A stretch of DNA of 64,000 nucleotides, from assembly GCF_018304825.1 (NCBI RefSeq), contig NZ_CP072649.1:62001-126000 (forward strand), in the 5' to 3' direction. This document shows positions 36,842 to 60,600 of the stretch, in pieces (position 1 is the stretch's first letter; each line of letters starts with the position of its first letter). The stretch is from Chloracidobacterium validum. Its GTDB lineage: Bacteria; Acidobacteriota; Blastocatellia; Chloracidobacteriales; Chloracidobacteriaceae. The notes beneath the pieces are model-generated. The model was not told the DNA's origin and did no database searches. It saw nothing but the letters and a program-made list of their open reading frames with translations. The position numbers and the translations under genes are program-made.

Positions 36842-38503
36842 CTAATCGGCCGGCTTGGTGCCAATGATGTCCTCTGGCTTGACGCCGCGCGCGATGCACC
36901 AGTCGGCGAACGGCTCGACGGCCGCTTCCGCCAGCTTGCGCCCAACCAGCCGCCGGAGGTGTTCGTCCAGCATGTCTGGCTCCCATCGCGCGTACACTTT
37001 CCGCCGATCGGAAGCCAGCAACGCTTCACGCTCTTTGGCGACCAGTTCTTTGAGTTCCGTTTTCTTGAGTTGCGCCAGCAACGCTTCGCCGGTCCGTTCG
37101 AGATGATCGAGATACCCCAGCTCGAGGTCCTGGACGCGCTCCTGAGAAGGCGAAGGAAAGAGCGGGCCGGCCTCACCCGCACCAACTCCCACTTCAGGGG
37201 CTTCCGACGCCTCAGCGGGCTTCTCAGCGCGAACGGAGGGCATCTTACCCGCCGGTCGGCGACGCTTCGGAGGTAGCTTCGGCAGGGCGTCCTGCCCGTT
37301 GACGATGAGCGTGTAAAGCAACCCGCCCGGATTGGCGAGGTCGCGCTGGCGGTATTGCCGGTCAAAGGTGGTGATGGCCTGCTCAATGGTTTCCAGCTTG
37401 CCCTGTAGCTCGAAGCTCTCCACCAACTTCTTGGCCACCGACCCAATCATGCCGCGCGCCATGAGCTGGCCCTCCAGGTGGAGCGCGACATCACGCACCG
37501 CGCGTTCTTCAGGCGAGAGGTCATCGTCGCACATGGCATCCATCACGTCGTAAATGGGCAGGGCCATTTGCTGGATGCGCGCCCCGAAGTCGAGGTTCTT
37601 GCGGAAGTGAATGGTTTCTTCCGCCAGCGTCCACTCGATCAAGAACTGTTTGGCCACCAACTCGTTCAGGGCCGGTTCGAGGCGCTGCATGATTTGCGAG
37701 ACGTAGAGCAACTCGCGTGACATGCCGACGTGCTCAAATGCCAGCTTGCGCACATTGATGACGAAGTAATCGCCGCTGCCAAATTTCTTGTCGAGGTAGC
37801 GAAACAGACGCTTGGCAATCGGCGAGGTCAGGTTGAAGTAAAAATCCGCGTCGAGCTTTTTGAACAGCTTCTCACTCAGGCTCTGGGCAACCCGGTCGCT
37901 CCACATGACATAGCTTTTGGCTCCGGTGCGCTTGCCGGCGCCCTCGTCAAAAATTTTGAACTCCTGGATGATGCTCATCCCCACATCCACCAACCGGCCG
38001 CTGTGGCGGTCCACGTAGGCGTTTTTGGCTTCGATTCGGACGGCAGCCAGCTTGCGGAGCGAGCTTTCGAGTCGCTCATAGTGTTTGGCGTTCATGGGCC
38101 AGCCCAGCCGCCGGATGAGGTCATACCGGCTGAAGTACACCTTCTTTTGAGCGCCCTGTTCGTAAGAAAGCTCCATCAACGCCACATACACGTCTTCATC
38201 GGTGGTGCTGGGCAAGCCTTCAATGGGGTGCGGCATGACCGTCCACACCCGCTGGATTTCACGCCCATTCGACGTGATGTGCTCGGTGAAGGTCAGGTAG
38301 TTCTTGCTTTTCTGGGCGCGCTTGTCGAGCACGGCAATGGGGAACACAGCCAAGTTGAACTCATCCTGGGCAATGCGGATGACCTCTGGCTTTTCCCCAT
38401 CCTCGCCGTCGCCGTGGGCTGTGGACGTGGCGAGTTCGGTTACAGGCAAACCTTCCGTCGCGCTTGGCTCACGTTTCTTTCGACGGCTTTGTTTTTCTGC
38501 CAT
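36842..38503 (-). CDS. RepA-like replication initiator protein
   Basis: 553 aa. The middle of the protein has the pattern of plasmid/chromid replication initiators (RPA/TrfA-like): NYLTFTEHITSNGREIQRVW, GLPSTTDEDVYVALMELSYE, FSRYDLIRRLGWPMNAKHYE, and LTSPIAKRLFRYLDKKFGSG, corresponding to tandem winged-helix DNA-binding domains. A basic, Lys/Arg-rich N-terminus and a long helical C-terminal extension (EALLASDRRKVYARWEPDML) are added. The gene points away from the iteron array at 38705-39245, the classical layout of an iteron origin, where the protein binds the repeats, starts replication and represses its own promoter. No parA/parB gene is in the window. Confidence 0.88.
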   Translation of the reverse strand: MAEKQSRRKKREPSATEGLPVTELATSTAHGDGEDGEKPEVIRIAQDEFNLAVFPIAVLDKRAQKSKNYLTFTEHITSNGREIQRVWTVMPHPIEGLPSTTDEDVYVALMELSYEQGAQKKVYFSRYDLIRRLGWPMNAKHYERLESSLRKLAAVRIEAKNAYVDRHSGRLVDVGMSIIQEFKIFDEGAGKRTGAKSYVMWSDRVAQSLSEKLFKKLDADFYFNLTSPIAKRLFRYLDKKFGSGDYFVINVRKLAFEHVGMSRELLYVSQIMQRLEPALNELVAKQFLIEWTLAEETIHFRKNLDFGARIQQMALPIYDVMDAMCDDDLSPEERAVRDVALHLEGQLMARGMIGSVAKKLVESFELQGKLETIEQAITTFDRQYRQRDLANPGGLLYTLIVNGQDALPKLPPKRRRPAGKMPSVRAEKPAEASEAPEVGVGAGEAGPLFPSPSQERVQDLELGYLDHLERTGEALLAQLKKTELKELVAKEREALLASDRRKVYARWEPDMLDEHLRRLVGRKLAEAAVEPFADWCIARGVKPEDIIGTKPAD

Positions 38504-38610: not shown

Positions 38611-38692
38611 TTTGCTTTAATTATCATCATTATCATTAATTATCATTAATTAGTTAATGGCAGCCAAAAGTTCTTTATTTTCAATAGTTTAC
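38611..38692. other. AT-rich putative unwinding region and rep promoter
   Basis: Sharp local drop in GC in a GC-rich genome, with a tandem 10-mer TATCATTAAT (38631-38640, 38641-38650) and a related TTATCATCAT before it. Likely the DNA unwinding element. On the minus strand GATAAT-type boxes could serve the rep promoter. Confidence 0.6.
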
Positions 38693-38704: not shown

Positions 38705-38745
38705 ATGTCAAAGGTCAATAGTCCCCATGCCTTGACCTTTGACAT
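38705..38745. promoter_or_regulatory. inverted iteron pair, putative rep operator
   Basis: A forward iteron ATGTCAAAGGTCAATAG (38705-38721) faces an inverted copy (38730-38745, CCTTGACCTTTGACAT) with an 8-nt gap, nearest to the rep gene. In iteron plasmids such palindromes bind Rep dimers and repress rep; here that is inference. Confidence 0.65.
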
Positions 38746-38769
38746 AAGCGCCAAAAAGACCGGTTTTTT

Positions 38770-38872
38770 ATGTCAAGGGTCAATAGTTTTATGTCAAAGG
38801 TCAATAGCGTTTATGTCAAAGGTCAATAGTTTTATGTCAAAGGTCAATAGCGTTTATGTCAAAGGTCAATAG
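38770..38872 (+). repeat. iteron cluster 1, five direct copies
   Basis: Core ATGTCAAAGGTCAATAG at 38770 (with AAGGG), 38791, 38813, 38834 and 38856, spaced 21, 22, 21 and 22 bp, that is two DNA turns, so all face the same side of the helix. Preceded by TTTT or CGTTT spacers. Confidence 0.95.
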
Positions 38873-38983
38873 TTCTTCATCCAGCTCACGTAACGTCGGC
38901 ACAAAAACCCCAGAAATTGCACAAGACACAAGATGTTGTGGTACTTGGTGCTATATCTAGTGGTTTAGCCCAGGGGAATTTTT

Positions 38984-39107
38984 ACGTCAAAGGTCAATAG
39001 TTTTATGTCAAAGGTCAATAGTTTTATGTCAAGGGTCAATAGTTTTATGTCAAAGGTCAATAGTTTTTATGTCAAAGGTCAATAGTCTTTACGTCAAAGG
39101 TCAATAG
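38984..39107 (+). repeat. iteron cluster 2, six direct copies
   Basis: Cores at 38984 (ACGTC), 39005, 39026 (AAGGG), 39047, 39069 and 39091 (ACGTC), spaced 21-22 bp. Separated from cluster 1 by about 110 bp of non-repeat DNA. Confidence 0.95.
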
Positions 39108-39228
39108 CACAAGATATGGGTTTGACAGACGCGATGCAGGGTGCAAAATAGCCCAACGCTTTGTTTTACTCAGTCGGCCTTCAAGTGGCGGTTTGAGATG
39201 ACCGGCGACCATCACCGGCAAGCGTTTT

Positions 39229-39245
39229 ATGCCAAAGGTCAATAA
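39229..39245 (+). repeat. outlying iteron
   Basis: ATGCCAAAGGTCAATAA, two changes from the core, about 120 bp beyond cluster 2. May mark the far edge of the origin. Confidence 0.7.
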
Positions 39246-39411: not shown

Positions 39412-40173
39412 ATGCGGGTGCGGGTATTGCCGAGTTTGGCTGATCCACGAAGTCAGTTGTTGATTACCTTCGTGGTCAATGACTGCCTGGCAATTGACGC
39501 CGGGGCGCTGGCGTTCCATTTGACCGGCGATGCGCTGTTGGCGGTTGAAGACATTGTGCTGACGCATGTGCACCTGGATCACATTGCCTCACTGCCCTTT
39601 ATTTTTTCGGAGATGTTTGCTGACATCCGAACGCCGGTGCGCATCCATGCGACGGCGTCTGACATCGAGCGATTGCGGCGACACATCTTCAACAACGTGA
39701 TTTGGCCCGATTTTACCCAAATCCGCAACGCGCATGGCGAATTGCTGACCTTCGTGCCTTTCGTGTGGCGACAGCCTTTCGAGGTAGCTGGTCTGCGCGT
39801 GACATCCGTTCCGGTCACGCATACCGTAGATACGGCTGGGATTATCATCGAAGACGCGCAGGGCGCGTGTGTGGCTTTTACCTCTGACACGGGGGTGACG
39901 GATGAGTTTTGGGAAGTGCTCAACGGATTGCCCCGGTTGGACGCCGTGTTTGTGGATGTGGCCTTTGACAACGCCAACGAGCCAGTGGCGACGGCTTCGC
40001 GCCATCTGTCGCCGCGGTTACTGGCCGCGGAGTTGGGCAAGTTGCAGTGCCAGCCGCAGGTGCTGGCCGTGAATTTGAAACCCTTTTGTCGCGAGCGCGT
40101 CACACGTGAGGTGATGGCGCTTGACCTGCCCAACGTACGGGTGGCGGCGCTGAACGTGGATTATACTTGGTAG
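39412..40173 (+). CDS. metallo-beta-lactamase-fold, class II cyclic-nucleotide phosphodiesterase-like
   Basis: 253 aa. The metal-binding motif THVHLDHIASLPF near residue 52 matches the class II 3',5'-cyclic-nucleotide phosphodiesterase signature (HxHLDH). Further ligands: His in VPVTHTVDTAG, Asp in FTSDTGVTD and a late His in ASRHLSP. Likely hydrolyses cAMP or cGMP in the cytoplasm. The next gene, 71 bp downstream and same strand, is an adenylate cyclase, which supports this. RBS TGAGGAGG (39396-39403) sets the ATG at 39412. Confidence 0.78.
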   Translation: MRVRVLPSLADPRSQLLITFVVNDCLAIDAGALAFHLTGDALLAVEDIVLTHVHLDHIASLPFIFSEMFADIRTPVRIHATASDIERLRRHIFNNVIWPDFTQIRNAHGELLTFVPFVWRQPFEVAGLRVTSVPVTHTVDTAGIIIEDAQGACVAFTSDTGVTDEFWEVLNGLPRLDAVFVDVAFDNANEPVATASRHLSPRLLAAELGKLQCQPQVLAVNLKPFCRERVTREVMALDLPNVRVAALNVDYTW

Positions 40174-40244
40174 CGTGCCCGGTAGGGCGCGCCAGGGGGG
40201 ACGTTCCGGCGGCAGAGACTGGTGACCTGTGGAGAGGCAAATTT

Positions 40245-42320
40245 ATGGGGTTTCCAAAAATCATTGTGACCGGTCCATCCGTTAGTGGGCGGGTTGATGA
40301 GTGCCGCAGGTTTCCGCTGGTGATTGGCCGCGCGACGAGTAGTGATGTCATCATTTCGGATGAACGGGCTTCGCGCTCGCATGCCAAGATCGAAGCCCTG
40401 CCGGACGGTAGCTATCGGTTGATTGATCTGGAAAGTCGCAACGGGACGATGCTCAACGACAATGTGATCGCAGGGTCGGTCCGCTTGCGAGATGGCGATA
40501 CCATTGTCATCGGCAGCCACCGATTGGTTTTTCAGTTGCCGTCCAAAACGGTAGATGTGCGGTATGATGACAAGCCACTTTCAGGCACGGTTAGGCTTCA
40601 GAATGCGGCTGAGTTATTGGCGCTCGGGCGTTCGGGGGACGTGACCGGCAAGCCATCGAGCAGTTTTCGCGCGGTCGCCGCCCCCAACCCGCAAGACGTT
40701 ACCCTGAGCGCCAAACAGCTCCATCTGCTTGAAAAGCGAAGCCAGATTCTCAGTTTGTTTTATGACTTCAACAAGCGCGTGGCGCGGGAGTTTGACATTG
40801 CCACGATCTATGCGGAGGTGGCGCGTCAGGTGTTTGAAATCTCGAACGCCGGACGGGTTATCATCGGAAAGATTGGCGCCGATAACCTGCCCACCGTCGA
40901 GTGGGGGACGTATCGGGATGATCTCATGCGCGCCACCTACGCCTCGGTTCCGATTAGCCGGACGGTCATTCGCACGGTGATGCAGGAACGGGTTTCCCTT
41001 TTGAGTCGGGACATGAGCAATGTCAAGGGCACCGCGATTCTGGGCGTCCAGTCACTGATGTGCGTTCCGATGTTGGGACAGGAAGACACGCCGCTGGGCG
41101 TGATTTATGCCGACAGCCTGCATTTGGACGGCTTCACGGAAGACGACGTGGATTACCTGACCGGGTTGGCTTCGACGGTGGCGCTCACGCTCGAAAACAT
41201 CATGGCGCACGAGCGGCTCTTGCACGAGGCGGAGGCGCGCACGGCCTATCGTCGGTTTTTGCCGCCACATGTCGTGGACCAGATCATGGAAGACCCGGAC
41301 AGCCTTCAGTTGGGCGGAGTCAACCAAGTCGTGACCACCATGTTTGCCGACATCCGTGGTTTCACGACGCTTTCCGAGCGCAAGTCGCCCCATGAGATTG
41401 TCGCCATCTTGAATAACTACTTCGAGCGGGCAGCCACGGCGATCTTTCGCCATGGCGGATCGCTCGACAAGTTTATTGGCGACGGCATCATGGCGTTGTT
41501 TGGTGCGCCCCAGCCGAGCGACCGTGACCCGGTCAACGCCGTTCAAGCGGCGATAGCGCTCCAGGAAGTCATCGAGCAGGTCAACGCTGACCTTGCCGCG
41601 CAAGGCTCGGATTTGCGCCTGAGTATTGGCATTGGCATCAACACCGGAGAAGTCACGGCCGGCTACATTGGTTCCAAGCTGCGGACGGATTACACCGTCA
41701 TTGGCGATGCCGTGAACTTGGCCGCGCGCTTGGAATCCAACGCCAAGCCAGGACAAATTTTGATGGGTGAGACGACTGCCCAGTGTTTGCGCGCGCTGGC
41801 GCGCCAGAGTATCGAGTTTGCCGAGGGCGAACGCGAGTTCGCCTTTGTCCCACTGGGGGGAATGAAGGTCAAGGGGAAGCTCAACGAAGTCAAGGTCTAT
41901 CGCGTCTTGTGGGGCGAGGAATTGGCTACGCTTGGGGACACTTCAGAAAGCGGAACGCCGCCAGTGCTTTTCCGCAGCGCCACGACGAATCCGGTTTTTC
42001 TGGAGTCCGAGACGATTGCGCGTCCGCAGTTGGACTGGGGTACCATCCGGCGTGATCCACGCCGCCAAGTCTCGATTCCGGTGGTGGTGACGGGCGCGGA
42101 CGCGCATGGAAACACTTTCGAGCAGGCGACCGAAACGATTGATGTCAGTCCGTCCGGTGCCTGTATTCGGCTGGCGCAGCCGCTCACCATTCCTTCGTCG
42201 CTATCGCTTTTGGTGCCGAGCTACGGTTGGCGCGGAGAAGTAATTGTGCGCAAGCTGACCCGTGACCCACAGGGGTATCTCGTGGGCGTCGAGATCGTTG
42301 GTCAGGGACCTCAGTGGTAG
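40245..42320 (+). CDS. class III adenylate cyclase with FHA, GAF and PilZ domains
   Basis: 691 aa. Order: FHA at about 20-95 (FPLVIGRATSSDVIISDERA, ESRNGTMLNDN), GAF at about 170-315, cyclase catalytic domain at about 345-525 and PilZ at about 595-690 (RRDPRRQVSIPVVVTG, IDVSPSGACIRL). The cyclase has metal Asp residues in MFADIRGFTTLSER and KFIGDGIMALFG, whose Lys fits adenine recognition, and DYTVIGDAVNLAARLES. It should make cAMP under control of a phospho-Thr partner, a small molecule and cyclic di-GMP (PilZ, inferred). The RBS GGAGAGG gives the start at 40245. Confidence 0.92.
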   Translation: MGFPKIIVTGPSVSGRVDECRRFPLVIGRATSSDVIISDERASRSHAKIEALPDGSYRLIDLESRNGTMLNDNVIAGSVRLRDGDTIVIGSHRLVFQLPSKTVDVRYDDKPLSGTVRLQNAAELLALGRSGDVTGKPSSSFRAVAAPNPQDVTLSAKQLHLLEKRSQILSLFYDFNKRVAREFDIATIYAEVARQVFEISNAGRVIIGKIGADNLPTVEWGTYRDDLMRATYASVPISRTVIRTVMQERVSLLSRDMSNVKGTAILGVQSLMCVPMLGQEDTPLGVIYADSLHLDGFTEDDVDYLTGLASTVALTLENIMAHERLLHEAEARTAYRRFLPPHVVDQIMEDPDSLQLGGVNQVVTTMFADIRGFTTLSERKSPHEIVAILNNYFERAATAIFRHGGSLDKFIGDGIMALFGAPQPSDRDPVNAVQAAIALQEVIEQVNADLAAQGSDLRLSIGIGINTGEVTAGYIGSKLRTDYTVIGDAVNLAARLESNAKPGQILMGETTAQCLRALARQSIEFAEGEREFAFVPLGGMKVKGKLNEVKVYRVLWGEELATLGDTSESGTPPVLFRSATTNPVFLESETIARPQLDWGTIRRDPRRQVSIPVVVTGADAHGNTFEQATETIDVSPSGACIRLAQPLTIPSSLSLLVPSYGWRGEVIVRKLTRDPQGYLVGVEIVGQGPQW

Positions 42321-42472: not shown

Positions 42473-44431
42473 TCAGGGACTTTTGAAAGAACCTCTTTCA
42501 AGGAAGGGCCGGGCCTGGACGATGTAGAGCCGCCCCTGGTACGTCAGCCACTCAATATCCTGAGTGACACCGCCGAAAAGTCGTTCGATGGCGCGGGCCG
42601 TCTGTCCCAGTTGGCGAATCATCGCAGCCGTCAGGACGGGCTGATCAGAAACACCCGGCACTTCCTTCAATCCGCCTTTTATATCAAAGGTCAATATGGC
42701 TTCATCATCGGCGCGGGTCAGCACCAGCGCCGAATCGCTTTGCGGGCGGTAGATGATCTGTTCGGGAACCCGGCGACCTTCGACGACCCGCAGCCCCAAG
42801 CCGCGTTTGGCGTTGATGTAAATGCCCTCGGTGTCACGTCGGTCAAAGGGGTTGGTGGTCACGAGGACACCGGCGCTATCCGCGTTAATGCCTTCCTGAA
42901 TGAGAACGGCCGGATACACGGCCAAGTGGTCAATCCGGGCGGCTTCACGGGCTTCAAAGGCTTCAAAGTTCCAAATCGAGGCCCAGACCGTCTTGATGGC
43001 CGTAATGAGGGCTTCGTCATCGCGGACGTTAGGGACCGTCGTGTAAAGTCCGGCTCCGCTGAAATCCGGCAGGTCCTCGGCATTGGTCGAGCTACGCGCG
43101 AAAAGCCCGACGCCGCGATACTCACGGCGAACTTTGGTCAAAATTGCCCGCCGGAGTGCCGGATCAAATGGCGCGGCGACCATGAAGTCGCGCAGCTTGG
43201 CCAGTTCGACCTGCCGGGTTTGCGGGTCGTGATGAAATTGGTCGTCGTTGAGCAGCGCCAGCACGCGGTCTTCAATGCCATGCCGGTCGGCAAACGCTTT
43301 GTAGTGCGCGAAGGGAATGGAGAAGCCACGCGGCACGGTCACGTTCGGAAGCCGTGCCTGGGCCACTTCGCCCAAGTTGGCCGATTTCGCGCCGAAACGA
43401 ATGACATCCTGCGCCCGCTGGCGGTGCAGGTCGGTCAGGCTTCGCCACCGGAGGTCGGCGCGTGGCAGGCGCAGTTCGCGGCTCAGGGCGCGTTCCCGTT
43501 CGGATTCGACGATTTGCTCGGCGGGTTCAATGGTGATGCCGTCCTCGGTAACGACGACCGTCACCCACCGATCAACTAGGCTGCGAAAGCGCGTGTCGGC
43601 GTCCTTGACGTAGGCATTGGGAATGCCCCACCCTTTCGCCAAAAGATTCAAGTGCGACAGTGGCGCGCCCGGCTGCGTTACGATGATGCCCCGCAGGGGG
43701 GTGGTCGAAAGCGGGGTTTCCTTGAAAATCACGATGTCTTCGCGCTCAAAGGGCTGTGGCGGCGGCAACTGCTCGACCAGCCGCAGAATGCCGACGGCCT
43801 GACCAGGGTTGAGTGGAAGAAAGGTTGTTGCGGGGAGCGCTTCCTCGGCGCGGACGCTTGGCACGTCAGGCAGATGCGCCGCAATTTCCTCGTGCCGCCG
43901 GGCGTTGGCCTTGAACGTCAAGGGCGCGAAGAACGTGGCCGTCAGCCGTTCGTGAGCGTAGGCCAGTAGCCCCGGCGTCAGCAGGTCGCCCTCCCAAAAC
44001 TCATACGTGAACCGCTCCAGGCGCGGCTGCCAAGCCATCGTGCCAAGCAGAAACCGGCGCCGCTCGTTGGTGTAGTTCTTGCGCAGAAACACATCGCCGG
44101 CGTCAAGCGTCAGGTACGTCGCCCGCGCAAAATCGCTGTGAAACCGAAAGCGCCTTGAGTTGGCGTAGTACACCTGGCCATCCGCGCAGTTGATGACGAA
44201 CAGGATGCTCGGCGCGGTGGCGTTTCGGCCCGATGGCGTCAACCGCGCCAGCCGGTCGAAGTCGGCGCGTGTCATCTGGGTAACGTAGTCCGGGGCAGAT
44301 GGGTCGTCCGGTTCGGACGCGCGGTTGTCCATCACTGGCGCTTGCGCGGTCGTCTGACCGGTGAGAGCCAGCGGGAACAGCGCGCCGAGCGCGACCACCA
44401 AGCTGAAGACACAGTGCAGCGCAACGCTCAT
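42473..44431 (-). CDS. exported PEP/pyruvate-binding protein
   Basis: 652 aa with a signal peptide (CVFSLVVALGALFPLALTGQ). A swivelling phosphohistidine-like segment lies near residue 250 (PLRGIIVTQPGAPLSHLNLL). From about 335 to the end is the ATP-grasp pyruvate/PEP-binding domain of PPDK/PEP synthase (KSANLGEVAQ, GLFARSSTNAEDLPDFSGAG, IDHLAVYPAVLIQEG, QDIEWLTYQGRLYIVQARPF). The domain order is reversed compared with PEP synthase and the protein appears exported, which is odd for an ATP-dependent enzyme. It overlaps mogA by one base (TGATG). An iteron-like 17-mer lies in its 3' part. Confidence 0.83.
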   Translation of the reverse strand: MSVALHCVFSLVVALGALFPLALTGQTTAQAPVMDNRASEPDDPSAPDYVTQMTRADFDRLARLTPSGRNATAPSILFVINCADGQVYYANSRRFRFHSDFARATYLTLDAGDVFLRKNYTNERRRFLLGTMAWQPRLERFTYEFWEGDLLTPGLLAYAHERLTATFFAPLTFKANARRHEEIAAHLPDVPSVRAEEALPATTFLPLNPGQAVGILRLVEQLPPPQPFEREDIVIFKETPLSTTPLRGIIVTQPGAPLSHLNLLAKGWGIPNAYVKDADTRFRSLVDRWVTVVVTEDGITIEPAEQIVESERERALSRELRLPRADLRWRSLTDLHRQRAQDVIRFGAKSANLGEVAQARLPNVTVPRGFSIPFAHYKAFADRHGIEDRVLALLNDDQFHHDPQTRQVELAKLRDFMVAAPFDPALRRAILTKVRREYRGVGLFARSSTNAEDLPDFSGAGLYTTVPNVRDDEALITAIKTVWASIWNFEAFEAREAARIDHLAVYPAVLIQEGINADSAGVLVTTNPFDRRDTEGIYINAKRGLGLRVVEGRRVPEQIIYRPQSDSALVLTRADDEAILTFDIKGGLKEVPGVSDQPVLTAAMIRQLGQTARAIERLFGGVTQDIEWLTYQGRLYIVQARPFLERGSFKSP

Positions 44432-57699: not shown

Positions 57700-60600
57700 C
57701 TAAAACACCAGCCGCAGTGAGAACTGAATCGAGCGCGGGCCGCCAAACTGGAAAAGCTGATTGAAGCCGTTCGCCGGGCCGGTCTGCCGCGTCGCGGTCG
57801 TCCCAGCCCCGGCTAGCGCCCGGCCCAGCATGCTAGGTGATTCACCATTGATGGACAGGCTTCCATTGGGCAACCGCGTCGGACTTGGCGCGCTGAAGTT
57901 GGCCTGGTTGAACAGGTTGAAGAACTCGGCCGCGAACTGCAACCGCAACCGCTCATAGAGCGTGAACGTCCGCCGCACGGAGAAATCCAACTGGTTGGCG
58001 CCCAGCCAGCGCAGGCTGTTGCGACCCAGCGTGCCCTGCCGATTCCGCGTCGGCTCGGCGAAAGCCGCCGGATTGAGGCGCTGACCACCCGGCGCATTCC
58101 CGTCGCGGATGAACACCGGCTGCCCTGGCACGAGGTCCACGCGGCGCGTCGTGCCGATGTTGAACACGTCAAATGACTGAGAAATCACATTGAGCGGTTG
58201 TCCTGACCGCGCGCGGAAGATGCCGTTGACCGACCATCCGCCAAAGATGCCCTTCACGAGCGCGTTGTCAGAAAAGGATGGAATGTCATACGTCACGGCC
58301 GCCGTCAATGTCTGTCGAATGTCGAAATCCGATGGACCGCGCTCCAACCGCTGGTTGAAGCCTTCCAGGGGAATGCCCTGAAAAGCTTCGTCTGACACAT
58401 CATCAATGGACTTCGACCATGTGTAAGATGCCAGCGCCTGCACGCCGCGTGCCAATCGCCGCCGGTACTGCATTTGTAGCGCATTGTAGTTCGACGACGT
58501 GGCGTTGCGGGTGACGTTGACCGGCGACCCGGCCTGCGGAGATGTCGCCGGCGCGGGGCCAAAGACGGCCGGATTGATGACGATCACGGCGCGGTCGAGG
58601 CCGAAATTCTGGCGCGCAAAAGCTTCGTTGTAGTTGCGGAGCTGCTCGCTGCGCAGCAGCCGCCGCGCTGCCGCGCCGACATAGGAGATGGTCACCGCGT
58701 TGTTGCGCCCGATGGCCCGCTCCAGTGTGACGTTCCAGTGATGGGTGTAGGGCAAGCGCAAGTTCCGGTCAAAGACAAAAAAGCTGGAACTGATGGGCAG
58801 ATTGTTCGGATTGAGAAACGGCGGCGGTTGCAGGTCGGCTTCGTTAGCCGGGAAGCGCAACTGCGCGGGATTGGTAATCGTCCGAAACGTGTTGTAGGGG
58901 AAGCTATTGAAGCCGCGCAGCGCCGTTCCCGTGCCGAGGTCATAGAACAGGCCGTAGCCGCCGCGTATGATCCAGCCCCCCACCAGTTGGTTGAGCGCCG
59001 AACCGGACCGTTCGGCAAACTGGTAGGCGATTCCAAACCGTGGCGCGAAGTCTATGTAGCGCGTCCGCCACTGGCGGGTCCCCGCCGGAGCGAGCGTAGC
59101 CGTCAGCGGGTTATCCAGGCCATCAATCGAGAAGGGCAGCCGGTCGCCGGCCAATGGTGGGTTGAGTTCATGCCGCAGTCCGAACGTCAGCGTCAAACGC
59201 GGCAACACGCGCCAAGTGTCCTGAATGAACGATGAAACGTTGTGAATGCGAAAGCCCGTGACCGGCGCAAACGCTTGAATCGAAATTGACGTTGGCACGC
59301 CATTGGCCCGGCTGGCCGGCGTGCTAAAGACATAGCTGATCGAAAGCGCCCGCGTGTCCTGAATCGGACGCAACAGGCGGTAATCCGCGCCGGCCTTGAT
59401 TTCGTGATTGCCGACGATCCAGGTCACACTCCCAACCAAGTTGAACTGCCGCTGAAGTTGGCCCAGCGTCCGTCCCTGCGTGAGGTTGGCGGCTGAAATG
59501 CCAGATACGCCGGGAATGGTCTGAAGGCTGACCGCCGTCGAAGCCCGTGGCGCAAACGATGGGAAAATGAGTGAGTCCGGCGGCAGGACGGCCCCATCCC
59601 GTTCGACGCCCCGGAAGTCGAAGTTGCCCCGCGACCGCCCGAAGTTCAAGCGCGCGTCCAGGACGAGGCTGGGCCGAATGGCCCAGGTCGCGCCACCGGT
59701 GAAGCTCCGATTGTTCCGCTCAAAGGCGTTTTCCTGGCTGGGGAACGACCGGAAACGACTGCCCGACGGCGAGTTGAGAAACGTGAAGAACAGGTTGGCC
59801 GTCTGCCCGATTTTCTGATCGAGGCGCAGGTTGAAGGTATCCACCTCCGACGGGTCGGAAATGCCGGTGAGGTAGCGCGCCGCATCGGCCGGATCGCCGG
59901 GCTGCGCCGGGGCGTTGGGGAGCGGAAAGGCATTGAGCACGGCCCGGAACGGCTCCGGTGCGGCCTGGCGGGCCGCCAGCGACGGCACGCGGGCAACGAA
60001 GGTCGTCCCCGGCACGAGTAGCCGCAGTCCCTCGTACGTCGCAAAGAAAAACGACCGATTGCGCCCGTCGTACAGTCCCGGTATCCGGATCGGTCCGCCG
60101 AACGTGCCGCCGAACTGATTGAGCCGCAACGGCAGCCGCGGACGCCCGTCCCGATTGTTGAACCAATCGTTGGCGTCAAGCTTTTCGTTGCGCAGGTAAT
60201 GGAACAGCGAGCCGGTGAAGGCATTGGCTCCGCCGCGGGTGGAAATCGAAATTTGTCCACCCGGCGTGCGGCCATACTCGGCGGCGAAACTGGAGGTCTG
60301 GACGCGAAACTCCTGCATGGCATCGGCCGGAACCAGACTGTTCGTGCCGCCCAGAATCGTCAGCGCCGGTTGTGTCCCGGCCCCCTGCTGGAAGGATTGG
60401 GCCGTGACGGCCGCGCCAAAGTTGGCGCTTACGCCGTCCACCATGAAGTAGTTGGCATTGGTGCGCTGACCGTTGATGCTGAACTGCCCGGTCGAAGTGA
60501 TACTCGGCGCGGCGAGCACAGTGCCGGGCGTCAGCTCAATCAGGGCCTGAAAGCTCCGTCCGTTGAGCGGAAGATTCTCGACAAATTTGCGCTCGACGAC

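Follow-up and report, generated by a model that had tools for sequence, protein, structure and literature searches.

The second chromosome of Chloracidobacterium validum carries, beside its predicted replication origin, two adjacent genes that probably form a unit for the turnover of cyclic AMP (cAMP), with cyclic di-GMP (c-di-GMP) and a phosphorylated partner as inputs. We put the probability of this reading at about 0.7. The window analysed here is a 64,000-nucleotide stretch of chromosome 2 (G000:C2:62001-126000, where G000 is C. validum), and positions without a genome or replicon label are window positions. The first gene is predicted to encode a cyclic-nucleotide phosphodiesterase and the second a class III cyclase with FHA, GAF and PilZ domains. 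Both lie on the same strand within 39412-42320, with coordinates exactly as the initial annotation had them (Table 1). The genes, their domains and key residues, their conservation and their linkage to the origin are direct observations. C. validum BV2-C is a green phototroph, piliated and non-motile, according to PMC12816986. The genome consists of two replicons of 2,659,040 bp and 1,000,103 bp, the latter being chromosome 2.

The second gene encodes a probable adenylyl-type cyclase with FHA, GAF and PilZ domains

The four domains had been proposed to share one chain, and Pfam finds them in that order in a single open frame. We compared residues across nine family cyclases, the C. validum protein and eight relatives 48-82% identical to it. 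The metal-binding residues D369 and D413, the transition-state residues N491 and R495, and K409 and T484 are invariant in all nine. In class III cyclases, ATP specificity is associated with a lysine paired with a threonine or aspartate. Lys409 occupies the position held by a glutamate in the guanylyl cyclase Cya2 (2w01), which favours ATP as the substrate; the engineered cyclase 6fht has lysine there. Thr484 is shared with the adenylyl cyclase CyaB (3r5g). Judged by these residues, the product is probably an adenylyl-type class III cyclase. Cya2, CyaB and CyaC (1wc0) have the catalytic domain and the metal and transition-state residues in common with it, but their regulatory domains differ.

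FHA loops that bind phospho-threonine use conserved Arg, Ser, His and Asn residues. Here R29, S43, R44, H46, S64, R65, N66 and G67 are invariant in the nine family cyclases. The model of the whole cyclase is poor (mean pLDDT 51.2), and its usable parts are the FHA and PilZ domains. Foldseek matches the FHA part to the FHA domain of DgcB (6hc0).

The PilZ domain is borderline by Pfam score in C. validum (22.7 bits and 26.5 bits against a cut-off of 22.5). PF07238 exceeds its cut-off in only six of the nine family tails, falls below it in G002 and yields no match at E 0.001 in G004 and G008; these scores count against the assignment. The binding motifs, which the initial annotation had singled out for checking, are kept in all nine members: RxxxR, and D(V/I)SxSG as the form of DxSxxG. 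The PilZ part of the model is confident, with pLDDT of 74-91 in ten-residue blocks from residue 611. Foldseek matches it to 8u0i, a c-di-GMP complex (TM 0.78 on the target), and to BcsA (5ej1). The C-terminal PilZ domain most likely binds c-di-GMP.

The first gene encodes a predicted cyclic-nucleotide phosphodiesterase

The first gene product scores above the cut-off of two Pfam families, Lactamase_B_2 (6.4e-15) and PDEase_II (PF02112; 7.4e-12, 45.5 bits against 23.7). An alignment of 28 relatives shows no variation at its predicted metal ligands H52, H54, D56 and H57 (HxHxDH), H137, D159 and H198. The nearest sequence in the PDB is yeast PDE1 (4ojv, E 4.3e-7). PDE1 also ranks first when the AlphaFold2 model (mean pLDDT 95.6) is aligned with VIA (Z 26.3, rmsd 2.1, 243 residues aligned), followed by the Bacillus anthracis ELAC homologue (Z 25.4) and YhfI (Z 25.3). 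In the Foldseek list, the leading group consists of YhfI, PDE1 and RNase Z. The class-II-like assignment proposed earlier agrees with the rank of PDE1 by both sequence and structure. PDE1 and the atypical class II proteins Rv1339, YhfI and CpdA have the metallo-beta-lactamase fold with HxHxDH in common with the C. validum protein; PDE1 is longer, at 363 aa in its structure versus 253 aa. Sequence and model are best explained by a cyclic-nucleotide phosphodiesterase as the product of the first gene.

The pair lies beside the predicted origin of chromosome 2

Divergent from the pair lies rep, which encodes the predicted chromosome 2 initiator. Between rep and the phosphodiesterase gene, ATGTCAAAGGTCAATAG occurs in 13 direct copies and one inverted copy at up to three mismatches, against 0 in 300 composition shuffles of the same stretch. 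The iterons that had been described next door to the pair are thus borne out. An initiator gene together with directly repeated iterons characterizes an iteron-type origin, and we predict that the array beside rep is the replication origin of chromosome 2. GC skew switches locally at about 38 kb of the window. Of 19 sampled stretches of the replicon, those up to 500 kb have mostly positive skew and those from 550 kb on mostly negative skew, with samples at 140, 240 and 290 kb running opposite to this pattern. The local switch and the replicon-wide samples support an origin near 38 kb. The studied second-chromosome iteron origin of Vibrio, RctB/ori2, likewise has its initiator gene beside directly repeated iterons. 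In C. validum, by contrast, the initiator is of the RPA/TrfA type and a second-messenger gene pair occupies the other side of the array.

A lone iteron stands between the array and the pair. It lies 132-142 nt past the array in all eight genomes where the phosphodiesterase gene adjoins the array, doubled in tandem in G004 and present as two copies 134 nt apart in G007. None was found in G009, where the phosphodiesterase gene is not beside the array. The distance from the end of the last iteron to the phosphodiesterase start is 84-349 nt across the eight genomes. Direct iterons number 12 to 23 per family genome and share one core sequence across the genomes, from which individual copies deviate by mismatches. 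A promoter-like site precedes the pair, and its TTGACA is kept in four of six genus members; the promoter scan is barely above chance, with four sites against a shuffle mean of 1.9 (sd 1.5). On the rep side, minus-strand promoter-like sites fall between 38667 and 38629. The fully conserved AT-rich block there would be the rep promoter or an unwinding region, and the inverted iteron is likely a rep operator. This shared intergenic layout suggests that Rep may act on transcription of the pair.

Between the two iteron blocks lies the conserved palindrome ACACAAGATGTTGTGG, which resembles an NrdR box. It fits the generally known consensus for that box well, but a second, weaker copy is only 6 bp away. 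NrdR requires 14-17 or 24-27 bp between boxes, according to PMC12051234, and because the spacing falls outside this range we rejected the palindrome as a canonical NrdR site. Its half-site ATATATTGTGG also adjoins the rep homologue of the order-level relative G012 (L099).

Iteron-like sites with at most two mismatches also occur outside the array, at C2:305077-305094, 936505-936522, 58207-58224, 530140-530157 and 104680-104697 (loci L113-L116; the last is window 42680-42697). All five are on chromosome 2 and inside long open frames. Chromosome 1 (2.66 Mb) has none at this threshold, its best match having three mismatches, and a backward-pattern control also gave none. The outlying sites are possible Rep titration sites. 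In three genomes in which a PPDK-domain gene directly follows the cyclase, an iteron-like site lies inside that gene (window 42681-42697, L105:4294 and L106:8092).

Table 1. Features of the rep, iteron and cAMP gene region of C. validum chromosome 2 (window positions)
Feature	Position	Strand	Details
rep, replication initiator of chromosome 2 (RPA / TrfA type)	36842..38503	-	PF10134 2.7e-13; PF07042 1.5e-7; divergent from the cAMP pair
AT-rich block, rep side	38638..38659		Fully conserved; identical in 6/6 aligned genus members
Iteron array, 12 direct copies in two blocks (38705-38872, 38984-39107)	38705..39107	+	21-22 nt spacing except gaps of 65 and 128 nt
Inverted iteron, rep side	38729..38745	-	Also in G001, G002, G005 (up to 3 mismatches); weaker in aligned G003, G004
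Conserved NrdR-box-like palindrome between iteron blocks	38926..38941 (region 38926-38963)		Genus alignment
Promoter-like TTGACA-16-CAAAAT, between array and lone iteron	39122..39149	+	Consensus match only
Lone iteron past the array	39229..39245	+	166 nt ahead of the phosphodiesterase start
Predicted cyclic-nucleotide phosphodiesterase, metallo-beta-lactamase fold, class-II-like, 253 aa	39412..40173	+	ATG start, AGGAGG upstream; Pfam, PDB sequence and structure matches
FHA-GAF-class III cyclase-PilZ protein, 691 aa	40245..42320	+	ATG start; 71 nt after the phosphodiesterase gene
FHA domain, residues 26-90	40320..40514	+	Pfam 4.8e-17
GAF domain, residues 184-317	40794..41195	+	Pfam 2e-8
Class III cyclase domain, residues 361-552	41325..41900	+	Guanylate_cyc (PF00211) 5.4e-32, 111 bits vs 21.9
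PilZ domain, residues 602-684	42048..42296	+	PF07238 1.3e-4; motifs, model, Foldseek

Linkage of the cyclase to the origin is ancestral to the family

Nine family genomes, from four genera, have the cyclase, and the counts out of nine refer to these. In all nine, a rep homologue, an iteron array and the cyclase occur together. The full order of rep, iterons, phosphodiesterase and cyclase holds in eight. In the ninth, G009, the cyclase is still beside the iterons and the phosphodiesterase gene is about 115 kb off. It sits there (L112, G009:C91 134000-146000) some 2 kb ahead of a different cyclase match, which falls in an open frame of 860 aa.

The outer flanks vary. Beside rep, the HK gene is retained only within the genus; neither it nor the downstream genes are kept in G007-G009. 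In G001 the gene 3' of the cyclase is about 15 kb away. In PMC8245765 the C. validum genome is described as mostly non-syntenic with, and extensively rearranged relative to, the Yellowstone strains, which makes the retained rep-iteron-cyclase block more telling.

Among all family genomes searched the count is nine of ten. The exception, G006, yielded no rep, phosphodiesterase, cyclase or any PF00211 match, and it stands as a point against universal linkage. A DNA search of G006 found that the HK neighbour of rep is missing too, with genes farther off present on contigs C15 and C4. Since G006 is a 90-contig draft that also lacks the HK gene, we favour an assembly gap; the simplest reading, and a likely one, is a single unrecovered contig. 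Among order-level relatives, the rep homologues of G011-G013 lie on contigs without cyclase matches, and no rep homologue was found in G010. The rep-iteron-cyclase linkage is ancestral to the family.

The gene pairing appears older than the PilZ tail

Cyclase relatives (E 1e-20 or better) occur in 48 of 58 related genomes and the phosphodiesterase in 42 of 58. Conservation of the pair, another check suggested by the initial annotation, holds in part. The genes are adjacent in eight of the nine family genomes. In the 42 relatives with both, the phosphodiesterase is directly upstream of a cyclase in 22, which span seven families, with 12-200 nt between matches. Weighing against a fixed pair, the two are apart in the other 20, including 14/14 of family f4, 3/3 of family f2 and G009, so they need not adjoin to work. 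The pairing, then, is old yet not obligatory. Its conservation argues against a chance neighbourhood.

FHA-GAF-class III cyclases of Acidobacteriota, Gemmatimonadota, Myxococcota and other groups have the same domain order as the C. validum protein, and those of the same class often have a phosphodiesterase gene upstream as well. They differ at the C terminus. A PilZ-size tail was found in none of the 21 cyclases of class relatives outside the family whose loci were examined. A search of the GTDB collection gave at least 575 loci with cyclase relatives, of which 80 were examined; among the matches listed, 78 of the 80 have no PilZ-size tail. In the flanks of the 80, again among the matches listed, a phosphodiesterase match occurs once and a rep match in none. 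FHA-GAF-cyclases without PilZ are older and spread over the class, and the PilZ tail and the linkage to the origin seem to be features of the family.

The two exceptions, L157 (Riflebacteria) and L191 (Planctomycetota), carry GAF-cyclase-PilZ proteins, one with FHA, and make the FHA-GAF-cyclase-PilZ architecture rare rather than unique. L157 is a 5.1-kb Candidatus Riflebacteria contig (JACQZM010000657.1) with two convergent PilZ-tailed cyclase genes. One of its two frames has the FHA-GAF-cyclase-PilZ order, with a PilZ score of 20.6 bits, under the cut-off. Both loci are distant from the C. validum cyclase (best locus segments 32% and 40% identical) and, unlike it, have no rep or phosphodiesterase match in the flanks examined. 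They are probably separate fusions.

Other predicted makers and receivers of the messengers

A PF00211 search found no second class III cyclase in the C. validum genome, other cyclase classes not being sought, and exactly one match each in G001-G005, G008, G010 and G012. The paired cyclase is therefore probably the main cAMP source of the cell. Seven GGDEF matches make c-di-GMP production plausible.

The genome has five cNMP_binding matches in four proteins. Two of the four, named here from their sequences, keep an RSAT stretch, which we take to be the phosphate-binding stretch typical of nucleotide-binding cNMP domains. One is an MscS-like channel with a C-terminal cyclic-nucleotide-binding domain (L085, G000:C1 ~1921466). 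The other has tandem cNMP domains followed by ferredoxin-type cysteine motifs (L087, G000:C1 ~2013546), and its sequence makes it a possible cAMP-controlled iron-sulphur electron carrier.

At E 0.001 the cyclase is the only PilZ match in C. validum. Most genus members have a second PilZ open frame of about 208-236 aa (for instance G001:C1:2281280, G005:C1:2250204 and G006:C1:338490), which was not found in C. validum at that threshold. Because most relatives carry this second protein, our argument does not lean on the cyclase being the sole PilZ protein.

Discussion

The activities, the ligands, the way regulation runs, joint transcription of the two genes and a possible link to replication are inferred as follows. 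The pair would be transcribed away from rep, which lies across the iteron array of chromosome 2. The cyclase, probably the cell's main cAMP source, would make the messenger, and the metal-dependent phosphodiesterase would reset the pool. FHA would sense a phospho-threonine partner, GAF a small ligand and PilZ c-di-GMP. The level of c-di-GMP and the phosphorylated partner would together set cyclase activity. The cAMP produced would act through the proteins with cyclic-nucleotide-binding domains.

The hydrolase may instead target something other than cAMP, such as other cyclic nucleotides, RNA ends or a PhnP-type substrate, with the adjacency to the cyclase only partly functional. VIA scores for RNase Z (Z 25.0-24.8) and PhnP (Z 23.6) come close to that of PDE1, so the fold alone cannot fix the substrate; Apyc1 is near-equal in structural score too. 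Apyc1, a cyclic-nucleotide-degrading phage protein, turns up by sequence as well (E 0.015). All NCBIfam equivalog models score far under their cut-offs, including NF041851 for cyclic-nucleotide phosphodiesterases (34 of 400 bits). PF12706 proteins such as the related Rv1339 are cyclic-nucleotide phosphodiesterases of broad substrate range, according to PMC9293780. Against a different substrate, a cAMP phosphodiesterase ranks best by both sequence and VIA structure alignment, and the pairing with a cyclase recurs in seven families of the class. We consider this alternative rather unlikely.

The place of the pair at the origin can be explained in several ways. Rep and the pair could simply have been neighbours in the family ancestor and been kept by descent, with no coupling of Rep to cAMP, and we give this an even chance. 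Short-range order may persist by chance, and within the genus rep also keeps its HK neighbour on the opposite side. Yet the core is kept in all nine genomes while the outer flanks change and the genome is extensively rearranged, and in G009 the cyclase stayed at the array when the phosphodiesterase moved away, and the lone iteron is absent there. The initial annotation held that position matters because gene copy number follows chromosome 2 initiation. The pair does lie beside the iterons, near the GC-skew switch, but this idea is generic, being true of every origin-proximal gene, and genes for synthesis and breakdown would rise together and largely cancel. It also leaves the lone iteron and the divergent arrangement unexplained, and we regard it as very unlikely. 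A more specific proposal is that Rep regulates the pair, which shares a conserved intergenic region with rep and is preceded by a lone iteron. At its fullest, Rep bound at the lone iteron and the array end would set transcription of the pair, and cAMP from a cyclase controlled by c-di-GMP and phosphorylation would feed back on initiation, as a lifestyle-dependent checkpoint for the second chromosome. We hold this extension to be unlikely.

Every part of the locus is of a known kind. What is unusual is an FHA-GAF cyclase with a PilZ tail that holds a fixed position at the origin of a second chromosome; what is new is the block of initiator, iterons and PilZ-cyclase shared across the family. In the literature as far as it was accessible, we found no report of a PilZ-controlled cyclase wiring or of coupling between second messengers and second-chromosome replication, which is not proof of absence. 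In the two Chloracidobacterium genome papers, 'cyclic' is absent from the main texts, and 'cAMP' and 'c-di-GMP' are absent from PMC8245765.

Were the cyclase under the control of its PilZ domain, the cAMP level would be set by c-di-GMP within one polypeptide, the single class III cyclase detected, which would be a simple wiring of two messengers. The conserved rep-iteron-cyclase block is a concrete place to probe the coupling of second-messenger genes and second-chromosome replication. In C. validum, cAMP signalling may be tied to c-di-GMP and perhaps to the copying of a chromosome.

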